A stretch of 58,958 nt of DNA from Chloroflexota bacterium (GTDB lineage: Bacteria > Chloroflexota > Anaerolineae > Anaerolineales > UBA11579), in assembly GCA_018662365.1 (NCBI GenBank), contig JABJGH010000021.1, positions 1 through 58,958 on the forward strand, written 5' to 3'. Positions 4,724 to 15,989 of this stretch are shown here, piece by piece; within the stretch, counting starts at the first letter, position 1, and every line of letters starts with the position of its first letter. A program made the position numbers and the translations under genes. Under the pieces are notes generated by a model. It was not told the origin of the DNA and did not search any database. It worked only from the letters and a program-made list of their open reading frames with translations.

Positions 4724-5788
4724 ATGACACGATCGAAAGACTTTGACTTTGTCGGCCTTTTTTTATGGGTTTTTCGTGCCGTAATTCTCATTCTTATCGT
4801 TTGGGGAACTTATGCAACAATTGCCGATAACCCTTACGAAACCCGAACTTGGGTTGACTTTATTATCTTCGGTTTAGCACAGGGGAGTATGTATGCCCTG
4901 ATCGCTATTGGATACACCCTGGTCTATGGTGTCCTATTCATGATCAATTTTGCCCATGGCGAATTCTTCATGGCAGGGATCCTTACCACCACGGTAGTAA
5001 TCACAACCCCCCTAAGTGAATCCGGTTTTTTGAATGAACAACCCATTCTTTCTCTTCTCATTATCGCCATATCATCTATGGCAGTTTCTATTTTCATCTC
5101 CGTACTAACCGAAAGAATTGCCTATCGACCTCTAAGAAAAGCTCCGCGGCTCGTGCCATTGATCACCGCTATTGGTGCTTCCTACTTCTGGCAAAACTAT
5201 TTTCGAGGCTTATTCGGTTCGGGGATAAAACCCATCCCTCAGATCGAAATATTGGACGGCACAATCCCCTTAGATTTTCTTGGCACAACCATGCTGAAAT
5301 CTCATGTGTTGGTGATCGTAACCACGATCGTAATGTTGATCGCTCTGAATTTCTTCATTATGAAAACCAAAACCGGGAAAGCTATCCGTGCGGTAGCCGA
5401 AGACAAAGATGTCGCCAACCTCATGGGAATCAATGTCGATCAAACGATCTCCATTACTTTCGCAACAGGCGCAGCAATGGCAGGTATCGCTGGTGTGCTA
5501 TATTCTTTGGTCTTTCGACAAGTTCACTTTTTCATGGGTTTCATCCCTGGCATTAAAGCATTTACTGCAGCCGTATTGGGTGGCATTGGTAGTCTCCCCG
5601 GCGCAGCTGTAGGTGGTTTGCTGCTAGGCATGTTCGAGTCTGTAGGCCCCAGTCTCTTCCTTAGAGGTCTTGGCATCCCTGCATTTAATCAACTAAAAGA
5701 CGTGATTGCTTTCACCATGCTTGTAATGGTTTTGATCTTCAGACCTCAAGGCATCGTCGGTGAAGTTCTCAGCGAGAAAAAGGCATAA
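4724..5788 (+). CDS. livH: branched-chain amino acid ABC transporter permease LivH
   Basis: This is an integral membrane subunit of the LIV transporter, 354 residues. After an N-terminal membrane segment (about 10-35) comes the BPD_transp_2 core. It begins F-I-I-F-G-L-A-Q-G-S-M-Y-A-L-I-A-I-G-Y-T, the classical LivH start. Near residue 220 it has the A-V-A-E-D-K-D-V-A-N-L-M-G-I-N coupling loop that contacts the ATPases. It ends with the conserved F-R-P-Q-G-I-V-G segment. The start has GGAG at about 9 nt spacing. It is followed after 12 bp by livM. Family assignment is secure; the extra N-terminal helix before the canonical start is a mild elaboration. Confidence 0.92.
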   Translation: MTRSKDFDFVGLFLWVFRAVILILIVWGTYATIADNPYETRTWVDFIIFGLAQGSMYALIAIGYTLVYGVLFMINFAHGEFFMAGILTTTVVITTPLSESGFLNEQPILSLLIIAISSMAVSIFISVLTERIAYRPLRKAPRLVPLITAIGASYFWQNYFRGLFGSGIKPIPQIEILDGTIPLDFLGTTMLKSHVLVIVTTIVMLIALNFFIMKTKTGKAIRAVAEDKDVANLMGINVDQTISITFATGAAMAGIAGVLYSLVFRQVHFFMGFIPGIKAFTAAVLGGIGSLPGAAVGGLLLGMFESVGPSLFLRGLGIPAFNQLKDVIAFTMLVMVLIFRPQGIVGEVLSEKKA

Positions 5789-5800
5789 GGTAGGTAAATA

Positions 5801-7498
5801 ATGAATATCAAAAAAACTTACCGTGATGCATGGAACACTGGTTGGACAGCTGGAATTGTGGCATTAAGCATTTCCGCATTAGGTCTCGCCGAGCTATTCG
5901 CAAAACGAAATATTGTTTCTGGTGTGATCACAATGGGTCAAGTAATGGTTTTTATTGTCCCTATTGTGATGGCTTATAACTTTACAAAAAATTTATCTAT
6001 GGAACAGCGGAAAACTGGGCCGCTCTTTGGCGCAGTGATCGGGGCAACCACGGCAATTCCACTTGTATTATTAATCATCGCCAGCACCCTTTTCAATATT
6101 CGAGATATCTTTGTGAATGTATCTCCATCACTAATTGAACTATTGACTTTTGGTCAAGAAAATGCGTATCTGGGTGGTTTGCTTTTATTAGTTTCAATGG
6201 CATTACTTAGTTATCTTTCTGCATACACCCACCAATTACCAGAAAAAATTAAAAGGTCCCTTTTTACGGGCTTAATTACGATCTTACTTGTGGGGATGTT
6301 CTCCGAAATCTTAACTGAAAGAATTCGATCTATATTTGGTGCGATTTTTGGCTCTAGTGTTGGTTCCGCCATCGTACGCTTCCTCTTTAAATCGAAGGCG
6401 ATCCAAAGTATCCCAGCCATTGTTGTTTTTGCAATTGCAACCTATGTTGGGTATCGTAAAATTCCCAAAACTGAAGAAGAAAAGAATAAATCAAAGCGCG
6501 CTTTCATAGTAGATGGAAAAGTTCAGTGGAAAACTGTCATTCCGTTGGCAGTACTCCTCTTAATCCTTCCATTACTTTTGGGCACCTATCTATCCGAGGT
6601 GACCAACAATGTAGGTATCTACATTCTTATGGGTCTCGGATTAAATATCGTTGTCGGTTTTGCAGGCTTACTTGATTTGGGCTACGTCGCCTTTTTTGCG
6701 ATCGGTGCCTATACCATGGCCGTCCTAACCTCAACCGGGCCACTTGGCTTATTTGGTATGAGCTTCTGGTTAGCCTTACCGATCTGTGTGATCGTTGCTG
6801 CCCTAGCAGGAGTTATGTTAGGTATTCCCGTTCTCAGAATGCGCGGTGATTATTTAGCAATTGTGACCCTAGGTTTTGGTGAGATCATCTCTCGTCTGGC
6901 GATCTCAGATATGCTCAAGCCATATGTGGGTGGAGCTCAGGGCATATTGCAGATTCCCAAACCAAGTATTGGATCCCTGGTTTTTACTAAACCAGAAGTA
7001 CTGTACTACGTCGTATTGGCTGGCGTTTTATTAGCCCTTTTTGTTTCTTGGCGCCTCCGTGATTCCAGATTAGGGCGCCAATGGATGGCAATGCGGGAAG
7101 ATGAAGATGTTGCTGAGGCAATGGGCATCAATTTGATGAAAACCAAGATCTTGGCCTTTTCCATTGGTGCAGCATTTTCCGGTTTAGCCGGGGCGATCTT
7201 CGCCAGTAAATTGACCTCTATCTTCCCCCATAGTTTCAATGTTTTGATTTCTATCAATGTTCTTTCGCTGATTATTGTGGGTGGTATCGGCAGCTTGCCT
7301 GGTGTGATTGTGGGTGCTGCAGTTTTAATTGGTCTCCCAGAATTACTACGAGAATTCGCTGAATATCGCTTATTGATGTACGGTCTGCTATTGATCGTAA
7401 TGATGCTCGCCAAACCCGAAGGTTTTGTACCCTCCGAAGTTCATAAACGAGAATTGCATGCTACCGATGAAGATTTTGTGGCAGAGGCAGGGGATTAG
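5801..7498 (+). CDS. livM: branched-chain amino acid ABC transporter permease LivM, N-terminally extended
   Basis: This is the second membrane subunit of the LIV transporter, 565 residues, well above the roughly 300-430 usual for the family. The canonical permease occupies about residues 245-565, with N-I-V-V-G-F-A-G-L-L-D-L-G-Y-V-A-F-F-A-I-G-A-Y near 282-304. The coupling loop A-M-R-E-D-E-D-V-A-E-A-M-G-I-N follows, and the protein ends K-P-E-G-F-V-P. Residues 1-240 are an added module with about six further hydrophobic segments and a short basic/acidic linker (K-T-E-E-E-K-N-K-S-K) before the permease. Some LivM proteins carry a few extra N-terminal helices; this extension is larger and I do not recognise its homology. 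It is 9 bp upstream of livG. Confidence 0.88.
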   Translation: MNIKKTYRDAWNTGWTAGIVALSISALGLAELFAKRNIVSGVITMGQVMVFIVPIVMAYNFTKNLSMEQRKTGPLFGAVIGATTAIPLVLLIIASTLFNIRDIFVNVSPSLIELLTFGQENAYLGGLLLLVSMALLSYLSAYTHQLPEKIKRSLFTGLITILLVGMFSEILTERIRSIFGAIFGSSVGSAIVRFLFKSKAIQSIPAIVVFAIATYVGYRKIPKTEEEKNKSKRAFIVDGKVQWKTVIPLAVLLLILPLLLGTYLSEVTNNVGIYILMGLGLNIVVGFAGLLDLGYVAFFAIGAYTMAVLTSTGPLGLFGMSFWLALPICVIVAALAGVMLGIPVLRMRGDYLAIVTLGFGEIISRLAISDMLKPYVGGAQGILQIPKPSIGSLVFTKPEVLYYVVLAGVLLALFVSWRLRDSRLGRQWMAMREDEDVAEAMGINLMKTKILAFSIGAAFSGLAGAIFASKLTSIFPHSFNVLISINVLSLIIVGGIGSLPGVIVGAAVLIGLPELLREFAEYRLLMYGLLLIVMMLAKPEGFVPSEVHKRELHATDEDFVAEAGD

Positions 7499-11377: not shown

Positions 11378-12061
11378 ATGGAAGAGAAAAAGATTTGGTC
11401 AGTTCGACAATCTGTTTACCAATTTTTTACGGACCACCAAACTGCACCGACAATAAATAATCTAGCAAGCATACTGAAATTGTCAGAAGGCGAGGTGCGG
11501 GCGAACTTAATCGAACTCGATCAGCATCACCATGCCCTGGCATTTTCCGCTGAAGAAGACCAAATAACAATGGCCTGGCCATTTTCAGCAACGCCAACCC
11601 CCTACCCCGTGGTTACCCCCAAGGGCAAATATTTATCAAACTGCGCATGGGACGCATTAAGTATTCCATATTTGGTCGGTCAAGATGCAGAGACAGAATA
11701 TGCCTGCCCAGATTGTGATCAACCGGTCATTATTAAATTCAAAGATGGCCTTTTGGAACCCACCGAAGCCGTAGTACATTTTTCAGTAGCCCCCAAGATA
11801 TTTTTCGAAGATCTAGGTTGTATTTGACAAACCAACCAACTCTTCCGGTCGGAAGAACACGCCAAAGATTATTGCAAGAATAATCAGATTGAATTAGGAG
11901 CCATCGTCCCCGCCCAGCAAGCATTCGAATTTGGCAAGCTCTGGTTTGGCCAAATGTTAGATTTAGAATGGCGCCCAATGGACAAAAATACAATAAAACA
12001 AATTATTTCTGGTGCTGGATTGATTGGTGATTTTTGGAAACTTGATGATAGTCCTTCCTAA
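11378..12061 (+). CDS. organomercurial lyase (MerB) family protein, probable selenoprotein with in-frame TGA at codon 150
   Basis: Read through one in-frame TGA (11825-11827), the frame encodes 227 residues, close to MerB's 212. Residues 1-65 resemble the MerB winged-helix region. The core has N-C-A-W-D-A-L (Cys89, Asp92), matching MerB Cys96/Asp99 in W-C-A-L-D-T-L. After the TGA the same frame continues Q-T-N-Q-L-F-R-S-E-E-H-A-K-D-Y, then A-I-V-P-A-Q-Q-A-F-E-F-G-K, both aligning to MerB. Counting back from L-F-R-S (F-F-A-S in MerB), the TGA falls exactly on catalytic Cys159. A hairpin with a GGTC loop follows 13 nt later. I infer selenocysteine at 150. The alternative is a nonsense mutation that leaves 149 residues. 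TGA is an ordinary stop elsewhere in the window (kinase at 18858, J/VWA gene at 21391). No sel genes are present here. Organomercurial or another C-metal substrate is unproven. Confidence 0.72.
11841..11856 (+). promoter_or_regulatory. SECIS-like hairpin in the merB-like coding sequence
   Basis: A 6-bp stem TCTTCC / GGAAGA (11841-11846 with 11851-11856) closes a tetraloop GGTC. The loop begins 19 nt after the TGA. Bacterial SECIS elements place a small stem-loop just downstream of UGA with G in the first loop positions. The E. coli fdhF element also has a GGUC loop, 18 nt after its UGA. The UGA is followed by C, as in fdhF. Recognition by SelB is inferred. Confidence 0.6.
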
Positions 12062-14009: not shown

Positions 14010-15989
14010 ATGAGCAATCAAGCTGACGTAATTTTAAAAAATGCGATCGTTCTCACTATGGATGAAGAGTATCATCAATTTGAACCCGGCGCAGTCGCGG
14101 CCAAGGGAGATAGCATCCTTGCTGTTGGAACTGAGGCCGAAATTCTTGAAGAATACACATCCGCAGAAATAATCGATTGTGATGGAAAGGTACTCATGCC
14201 TGGCTTAGTGAATGCACATACCCACGTGCCCATGACTTTGCTCCGCGGCATTGCTGACGACCTTCGCCTCGATGTATGGCTATTAGGATACATGATGCCA
14301 ATCGAGCGCGAATTCGTTTCCCCCGAATTTGTCAAACTCGGCACCTTGATCGGATGTGCAGAGTTTATCCGTACCGGAATTACCAGCTTTGCAGATATGT
14401 ATTATTTCGAAGATGACGTAGCAAAAGCCACTGCCCAAGCAGGCTTACGCGGGGTGCTCGGCCAATCCATCATGAAATTTCCTACACCTGATGCCAGGTC
14501 CTATGAAGAATCCCTAGAATACACCCGTGATTATATTATCCGTTGGAAAGATCATCCTTTAATTGTCCCCTCCATTGCCCCCCATGCACCCTTTACTTGC
14601 ACCCCTGAAATATTGAAAGCCAGTGCTGCATTGGCCGCCGAATTTGATGTCCCCCTCCATACCCATTTGGCAGAAACGGCAGTTGAAGTAGAAAATATGC
14701 GTGCGGAAAATGACATGCCAGTAATACCCTATGCCAAGAAACAAAATTTGTTTGACGCCAAAGTTTTAGCAGCCCATTGCGTTCATATTGACACCGGTGA
14801 AATACATACCCTTCTCCATCATAATGCCGGTGTTTCCCATAACCCCTCCTCTAACATGAAGCTTGCCTCTGGTGCAGCCCCCGTTCAGGAAATGCTAGAT
14901 GCTGGTTTAAAGGTCGGGATCGGTACAGATGGACCCGCCTCCAACAACGACTTAGACATGTTTGAAGAAATACGCTTGGCAGCTTTTCTTGCCAAATTGC
15001 GTGGCAATGACCCCACCGCCCTCCCCGCTCGAACCGCTGTCACCATGGCCACCCGCATGGGTGCTAAGGCAATGCATATTGGGGACCTCACTGGATCTTT
15101 GGAAGTAGGCAAACGGGCAGATTTGATCTTGGTCGACATCAACACCCTCCATAATTCCCCTCGTTTCAGACGAGACCCCAACGGCATTTACTCTCAATTG
15201 GTTTATGCTGCAAAATCTACGGATGTCACCGATGTAATGGTTAACGGAAACTGGGTAATGCGGGAAAAGGTTCTACTAACCATTCAAGAAAAGGAATTAT
15301 TAGAAGAGGCAAATGAGTATGCCAAGAAATCAGATTCCTTCTTGATCCAGCGCGAACAATCCGTTCTTTCCAAATTGATCGCGATTGGTGGAGCTGCCGA
15401 AGGGGAAAGCTTCGAGATCCAAGTCAAGGTAAAGATAAGTAATCCTAAACCGGTTAGAGAAGCCATAGAAAGTGACCAGTTAGAAATGATTTACCATCGC
15501 CATTACAAAGAATTTGATACCTATTTCATCTTTGATGACCCCAAACAAGGACAAGTCCGACATCGCGAAGATGAATTTATAAACACAAAAGGGGAAGTCG
15601 AACACACCCGTACTCGGTTAACCCTTGTGGGTGAGAAAAGTGAACACAAATTCCCTACCGATGTGATCCTTTCCCGCAGTCGATATATCGCTCCTGCACC
15701 CCAAACCTTACGTTTCCTCAGAGAGTACTTTAAGCCTGACAGTGAACTCTATATTCAAAAGGACCGTTTGCGCTGGTTAGTAAAATACAAAAACGAAGAG
15801 TTTTATATCAATTTAGACCAAGTAAATAACCCTGATCTTGGATATTACCTTGAGGTGAAGAGCCGCACCTGGAGCAGCAAGGATGCCGAGAAAAAAGCAA
15901 CCCTCGCGGTTGAATTAATCGAACTACTTGGGGCAAATCCACAAAAAACAGTTCCTCAAGATTACTCGGAAATGCTAGAGAAGAACTAA
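14010..15989 (+). CDS. mtaD: amidohydrolase (MTA/SAH deaminase type) fused to a C-terminal CYTH-like domain
   Basis: A 659-residue two-domain protein. Residues 1-440 are a metal-dependent amidohydrolase of the TRZ/ATZ/SsnA-MtaD group, which deaminates 5-methylthioadenosine, S-adenosylhomocysteine or related purines. The metal ligands are N-A-H-T-H (His70, His72), L-H-T-H-L-A-E near 217, A-A-H-C-V-H near 255 and I-G-T-D-G-P-A-S-N-N-D near 308. Residues about 465-655 read like a CYTH (CyaB/thiamine triphosphatase) tunnel fold: F-E-I-Q-V-K-V-K at the start, charged strands such as Q-V-R-H-R-E-D-E and T-R-T-R-L-T, and L-E-V-K-S-R-T-W-S near the end. CYTH enzymes act on triphosphates or polyphosphate. 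AAGGAAATG precedes the ATG. A terminator hairpin lies in its leader and another after its stop. The exact deaminase substrate is uncertain. Confidence 0.85.
   Translation: MSNQADVILKNAIVLTMDEEYHQFEPGAVAAKGDSILAVGTEAEILEEYTSAEIIDCDGKVLMPGLVNAHTHVPMTLLRGIADDLRLDVWLLGYMMPIEREFVSPEFVKLGTLIGCAEFIRTGITSFADMYYFEDDVAKATAQAGLRGVLGQSIMKFPTPDARSYEESLEYTRDYIIRWKDHPLIVPSIAPHAPFTCTPEILKASAALAAEFDVPLHTHLAETAVEVENMRAENDMPVIPYAKKQNLFDAKVLAAHCVHIDTGEIHTLLHHNAGVSHNPSSNMKLASGAAPVQEMLDAGLKVGIGTDGPASNNDLDMFEEIRLAAFLAKLRGNDPTALPARTAVTMATRMGAKAMHIGDLTGSLEVGKRADLILVDINTLHNSPRFRRDPNGIYSQLVYAAKSTDVTDVMVNGNWVMREKVLLTIQEKELLEEANEYAKKSDSFLIQREQSVLSKLIAIGGAAEGESFEIQVKVKISNPKPVREAIESDQLEMIYHRHYKEFDTYFIFDDPKQGQVRHREDEFINTKGEVEHTRTRLTLVGEKSEHKFPTDVILSRSRYIAPAPQTLRFLREYFKPDSELYIQKDRLRWLVKYKNEEFYINLDQVNNPDLGYYLEVKSRTWSSKDAEKKATLAVELIELLGANPQKTVPQDYSEMLEKN

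Follow-up and report, generated by a model that had tools for sequence, protein, structure and literature searches.

The organomercurial lyase MerB is recognised by four signature residues, Cys96, Asp99, Cys117 and Cys159, and a published survey of MerB screened for Cys159 (according to the available part of PMC8261052). Its mechanism relies on a pair of soft ligands, an Asp that acts as acid and base, and thiols by which the metal is removed (available part of PMC4525700). A MerB-like organometallic lyase, SaoL (NF040728), is a predicted selenoprotein with the motif CU (excerpts of PMC13188914 and PMC9312934), and since reviews list this protein, the kind is already known, by prediction. In Geodermatophilaceae, the use of UAG for selenocysteine (Sec) has been published for FDH, a UGSC-motif protein and AhpC, together with a tRNA-Sec that has the anticodon CUA (excerpt of PMC5330540).

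Here we describe a MerB-like gene at positions 11378-12061, forward strand, of a 58,958-nucleotide stretch of Chloroflexota DNA (the window). A preliminary description had proposed a Sec-containing organomercurial lyase homologue and knew of no characterised precedent. The latter statement needs qualifying: SaoL had already been predicted by others. On the comparative evidence given below, we favour the reading that the gene encodes a functional selenoprotein, a MerB-fold lyase of organomercurials or other soft organometals with Sec at residue 150.

The reading frame and its likeness to MerB

When TGA is translated as Sec, 11378-12061 (TAA stop included) encodes 227 residues with a single TGA at 11825-11827, residue 150, and no other stop until the TAA at 12059-12061, exactly as the preliminary description had it. 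The whole protein scored 88.9 bits against the Pfam MerB family (PF03243), above the 27-bit gathering score. Taken alone, the part before the TGA scored 51.4 bits and the part after it 22.1 bits, a weak match under the gathering score. Both matches lie in the same frame at consecutive profile positions, which upholds the earlier statement that MerB-like sequence flanks the codon on either side. The NCBIfam MerB models gave 47 and 41.1 bits, far under their cut-offs of 193 and 200, and in a quick tree of 73 rows the window protein had a long branch (1.68).

Structural comparisons pointed to the same fold. A profile of 49 relatives (A3) matched the solved chain of MerB2 (5c17) with 86 bits and other MerB chains with 38-46 bits. 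An AF2 model of the window protein, built with Cys instead of Sec, reached a pLDDT of 95 and a pTM of 0.90, and all 11 Foldseek matches under E 0.001 were MerB or MerB2 (TM-score 0.47-0.67 by query length).

Residue equivalences were taken from profile alignments to the solved MerB chains, with numbering counted from the chain positions. Here, Cys89 (TGC, 11642-11644) corresponds to MerB Cys96, Asp92 (GAC, 11651-11653) to Asp99, and Cys110 of a Cys110-x-x-Cys113 motif (11705-11716) to Cys117, while Cys159 is replaced by the TGA codon; all lie on the forward strand, and the preliminary assignments of Cys89, Asp92 and the TGA agree with these alignments. Among 115 aligned rows, the Cys89 column held Cys in 111, TGA in 3 and a gap in 1, the Asp92 column Asp in 110, Glu in 4 and a gap in 1, and the Cys110 and Cys113 columns Cys in 99 and 87, respectively. 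The assignment of the TGA as Sec150 draws on translation, this alignment, the relatives and codon-anticodon co-change. In the window protein, Sec150 follows Cys148 and Ile149 (C-I-U, 11819-11827); a Cys two residues before Sec is found in this protein alone (1 of 115 rows), most relatives having Phe.

Under Table 11 the frame stops at the TGA. Were this a true stop, the locus would be a pseudogene or would encode a functional 149-residue protein without the second catalytic ligand, and the long branch of the window gene would suit such a history. We regard this as very improbable. The protein is conserved past the TGA, with Phe156, Arg157, Ser158, Phe219 and Trp220 invariant in 49 aligned sequences, silent positions downstream of the codon are frozen, and the stop recurs at one column in 113 placed rows, with TAG in precisely those genomes whose tRNA-Sec has the anticodon CUA.

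Codon, hairpin and tRNA

Relatives were collected by a contig scan across genomes with two peptide patterns, one of which requires the adjoining FRS-E-H motif. Because both patterns exclude the Sec column, the choice of relatives is unbiased towards a stop there. The scan gave 274 relatives, the best 80 of which were kept. A profile search of the collected loci returned 114 best rows, and in the 113 that could be placed the column was TGA in 108, TAG in 5 and a sense codon in none. Some of these rows are the same gene reached twice, and the number of unique genes is 109 (104 TGA, 5 TAG). A stop codon in every placed row, in relatives at roughly 30% identity, is more than chance would give, and in view of its recurrence at one column we reject a pseudogene. 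Nor do the relatives show the decay that the preliminary description had named as counter-evidence: codon, hairpin and protein are kept, and homologues with TGA or, in two cases discussed below (L148 and L168), Cys at this column, which it had proposed to look for, exist.

The host genome is a 66-contig assembly (93.95% complete), in which a sequencing or assembly error in a Cys or Trp codon might be suspected. Such a base error is untenable because the stop recurs in 109 unique genes, with TGA in 104 and TAG in 5 at the same column, and we give this explanation practically no credence.

According to their record titles, the relatives come from Chloroflexota, Acidobacteria, Actinomycetota, Gemmatimonadota, Calditrichota, KSB1, Planctomycetota and one Proteobacteria bin. 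Within the window's family 3 of 24 genomes matched, the host included, and within its class profile A1 matched 62 of 396 genomes, with 39 scoring at least 166 bits. The best places of these 39 strong matches had a TGA in 38 cases, 8 of which were not placed on the Sec column, and no stop in one (G293). No match to the family was found in phage. Plasmid records gave 33 matches, and of the 15 listed, four were taken for comparison (L168, L172, L173 and L174); in a tree without L174, L172 and L173 fall among ordinary MerB-like proteins with Cys. Two further loci deserve mention for their arrangement. An Acidimicrobiia contig (L127) carries two different Sec-MerB-like genes, 4944-5636 (+) and 6115-6834 (-), that face each other about 480 bases apart, and in L042 the Sec codon is followed 16 codons later by a second TGA, in a column (166) that is Cys in many relatives.

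A bSECIS-type hairpin, UCUUCC-GGUC-GGAAGA, starts 13 bases past the TGA, at 11841-11856 on the forward strand. Its loop is GGTC in 109 of 110 distinct sequences, the window included, and all six pairs and the GG of the loop are kept in 106. Across the 110 sequences, pair 20-27 is C-G in 105 and T-A in 5, pair 17-30 is C-G in 105, T-G in 2 and T-A in 3, and pair 21-26 is C-G in 108, A-T in 1 and unpaired in 1. All five T-A cases at pair 20-27 combine a silent Phe change (TTT) with a change of Glu to Lys (AAA) on the opposite side, which restores the pair. Codon choice within the hairpin was strongly skewed: CTC for Leu155 in 82 of 86 (background 35%), CGG for Arg157 in 106 of 109 (28%) and TCG for Ser158 in 108 of 109 (31%). 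Ser151, directly after Sec, was also biased (AGC 80% versus 24% background), and positions farther from the hairpin, for example Gly174, were at background. Taken by itself, the window hairpin was not significantly stable (z -1.40, 20 of 200 shuffles as good), nor did it stand out from synonymous recodings of the window, a fraction of 0.366 of which fold as well and 4.4% of which keep the hairpin. Most of 20 other sequences were likewise not significant against synonymous recodings, and an Rfam search of the window gave no match. It is on comparative evidence between sequences that a SECIS hairpin is present after the UGA.

The five TAG genes belong to Blastococcus (2), Modestobacter (1) and Geodermatophilus (2), all Geodermatophilaceae. 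A tRNA-Sec over the cut-off was detected in 14 of 15 gene-bearing genomes searched, the exception being G426, a 2.4 Mb Calditrichota bin. The tRNA-Sec anticodon was CTA (CUA) in all five TAG genomes and TCA (UCA) in all nine TGA genomes in which the tRNA was found. ARAGORN labelled the CTA-anticodon tRNAs Pyl, while the covariance model identified them as Sec. Codon and anticodon thus change together cleanly within the family, TGA with UCA and TAG with CUA, and in our view no other single finding shows as strongly as this co-change that the codon is decoded as Sec. With the stop in 113 of 113 placed rows and the hairpin, it bears out the probable Sec protein of the preliminary description, and we consider Sec decoding at TGA 11825 near certain.

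The selA, selB, selC and selD genes that had been named as a check are all present in the host genome. SelA (536.7 bits), SelB (361.5 bits) and SelD (364.3 bits) were over their cut-offs, as was a tRNA-Sec with the anticodon TCA (UCA; 72 bits), on which ARAGORN agrees. The host selD (G000:C52:21463-22398, locus L022) contains one TGA of its own, which gives this genome a second probable selenoprotein. SelA matched in 38 of 38 strong-match TGA genomes (weakly in G127 and G376) versus 301 of 358 others (one-sided Fisher p 0.002, kinship uncorrected), but this co-occurrence is weak evidence because SelA matches in 339 of the 396 genomes of the class.

Relatives with cysteine or with two TGA codons

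Cys occupies the Sec column in L148 (from G293) and in L168 (Paraburkholderia sp. PGU19, a 2.38 Mb plasmid record). In the quick tree of 73 rows both are nested within the Sec clade (support 97, starred), a placement that fits a return from Sec to Cys. In G293, which is 98% complete, neither a SelA match nor a tRNA-Sec was found; for L168 the search covered the plasmid record only. In both proteins the equivalent of Asp92 is also Cys (C-x-W-C), a paired change of the active site.

Twenty stretches from weaker class matches comprised 13 with two TGA codons and 7 that encode Cys proteins. The 13, together with three from 400 genomes of the phylum, form one Chloroflexota clade (L150-L155, L157-L159, L164-L167 and L169-L171; support 100, starred), in which TGA stands at both the Cys96 and the Cys159 column in 16 of 16 and Asp99 is kept. 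An invariant hairpin comes after each TGA in all 16, CCCTTCGTGCAAGGG 21 bases beyond the first codon and TTCTTCTGGTCAGAAGA 12 bases beyond the second, both distances being constant. The loop of the second hairpin is GGTC, as in the single-Sec family, but the pair that closes it differs, in line with Trp in place of Arg. The predicted structure of one member (pLDDT 85.8) matched only MerB under E 0.001. In the window's genome only the single-Sec gene was found.

A further small clade has the FRS motif and Glu at the Asp99 column; it includes L004, L034 and L050 with two TGAs each and the minus-strand gene of L127 with Cys96 and one TGA. In L004 (466-2019, -) and L034 the double-TGA MerB-like domain continues in frame into an AAA-type ATPase domain, with 67% identity over 291 residues.

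Gene context, proposed chemistry and comparison with known systems

The gene starts 33 bases past that of an FAD-dependent oxidoreductase; an ornithine-cyclodeaminase-family gene also lies upstream, a cinA-like gene downstream, and our reading of the open reading frames places a branched-chain amino-acid type ABC transporter upstream as well. An amidohydrolase at 14010-15989 of the window has a C-terminal part of about 240 residues without Pfam match, which by eye we take to resemble a CYTH domain. Mechanical ORFs of at least 90 aa next to the gene were compared across 80 loci. The 141 nearest-neighbour proteins matched 149 Pfam families, and none of the 25 commonest listed occurred in more than three. 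The upstream neighbour was on the same strand in 46 of the 80 loci and on the other in 28, the downstream neighbour in 36 and 34, respectively.

MerA in the same genome is a frequent, though not strictly required, partner of MerB. Of 56 genomes that carry a family member, including the Cys genome, 7 had a MerA over the cut-off; the host was not among these, its best match reaching 328.2 bits against a cut-off of 454.45. A mercury operon is therefore unsupported, with no conserved neighbours across the 80 loci and MerA rare; the link to mercury rests on homology, and the protein looks like a stand-alone enzyme. Three MerA-like genes under the MerA cut-off (G209:C198:3515-4864, G140:C39:55392-56744 and G023:C27:19421-20776) have one in-frame TGA each, and are possibly selenoproteins as well.

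In the reading we favour, a ribosome reaching UGA 11825, with SelB bound to the hairpin at 11841-11856, would insert Sec from tRNA-Sec(UCA) and complete the MerB-fold protein. Its active site would consist of Cys89, Asp92 and Sec150 in place of MerB Cys96, Asp99 and Cys159. By homology with MerB, the Cys thiolate and Sec selenolate would most likely hold an organomercurial or another soft organometal between them; Asp92 would give a proton to the carbon, the hydrocarbon would leave, and cellular thiols would then take the metal ion. At neutral pH a selenolate is in its ionised form, and its hold on mercury is tighter than that of a thiolate; this tighter binding could aid trace capture in cells without a mer operon. 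Of the organomercurial lyase homologue first proposed, the MerB fold and the site residues stand, and by analogy with MerB organomercurial or organometal lyase chemistry is probable.

The same fold could serve another end, such as selenol-thiol redox, metal sequestering, or lysis of C-metalloid, C-S or C-Se bonds. The stand-alone gene, the scarcity of MerA and the distance from the MerB equivalog models would all suit this, and Cys148-Ile-Sec150 could form a selenosulfide, but Cys148 occurs in 1 of 115 rows only. Almost every row retains the equivalents of Cys96 and Asp99, and this would be hard to explain by a role in redox or storage alone. We therefore hold such a role to be possible but somewhat doubtful, and retain the organometal lyase as our working reading.

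We tentatively propose that the family is a widespread set of demethylases that use a selenol on organometals, probably on methylmercury; it would span at least seven bacterial phyla and work outside mer operons, with a separate diselenol-site branch in Chloroflexota. Such a family would have escaped notice, since its genes appear truncated at the Sec codon and do not carry the Cys159 signature; these genes do not pass the Cys159 screen of the published MerB survey (available part of PMC8261052). Evolution has apparently placed selenium in a site that breaks carbon-mercury bonds, and in one branch twice. Mercury and selenium are commonly treated together, as mercury poisons selenoenzymes. The family opens two questions to direct test, how a selenolate affects MerB chemistry and which bacteria in the environment might demethylate methylmercury, and its hosts include named Geodermatophilaceae strains open to laboratory testing.

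With MerB (PF03243; 3f2f, 3f0o, 3f2g, 1s6l) and MerB2 (5c17) the window protein shares the fold and the equivalents of Cys96, Asp99 and Cys117; it differs from MerB in having Sec for Cys159, no conserved neighbourhood and scores far under the NCBIfam cut-offs. With SaoL, as far as it is described in the excerpts available, it shares MerB relatedness and a predicted Sec. However, against the SaoL model NF040728 it scored 38.0 bits (38-57 bits with three relatives), below the cut-off of 140. The reference named for SaoL is reportedly Haft and Gwadz 2023. Compared by model and by partial description, SaoL has Cys directly before Sec, whereas the window protein has Ile149 before Sec150. In the literature searched, parts of which were available, no Sec-MerB appeared except SaoL and an 'alkylmercury lyase MerB-like protein', an entry under which some members of the present family may be hidden. 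As far as that literature goes, the phylum-spanning family, its UAG-coded members and its double-Sec branch had not been described previously. The available text of PMC5330540 has no occurrence of MerB and names no MerB-like protein among the UAG selenoproteins. Those Geodermatophilaceae selenoproteins share with our five TAG relatives the bacterial family, the CUA anticodon of tRNA-Sec and TAG at the Sec site.
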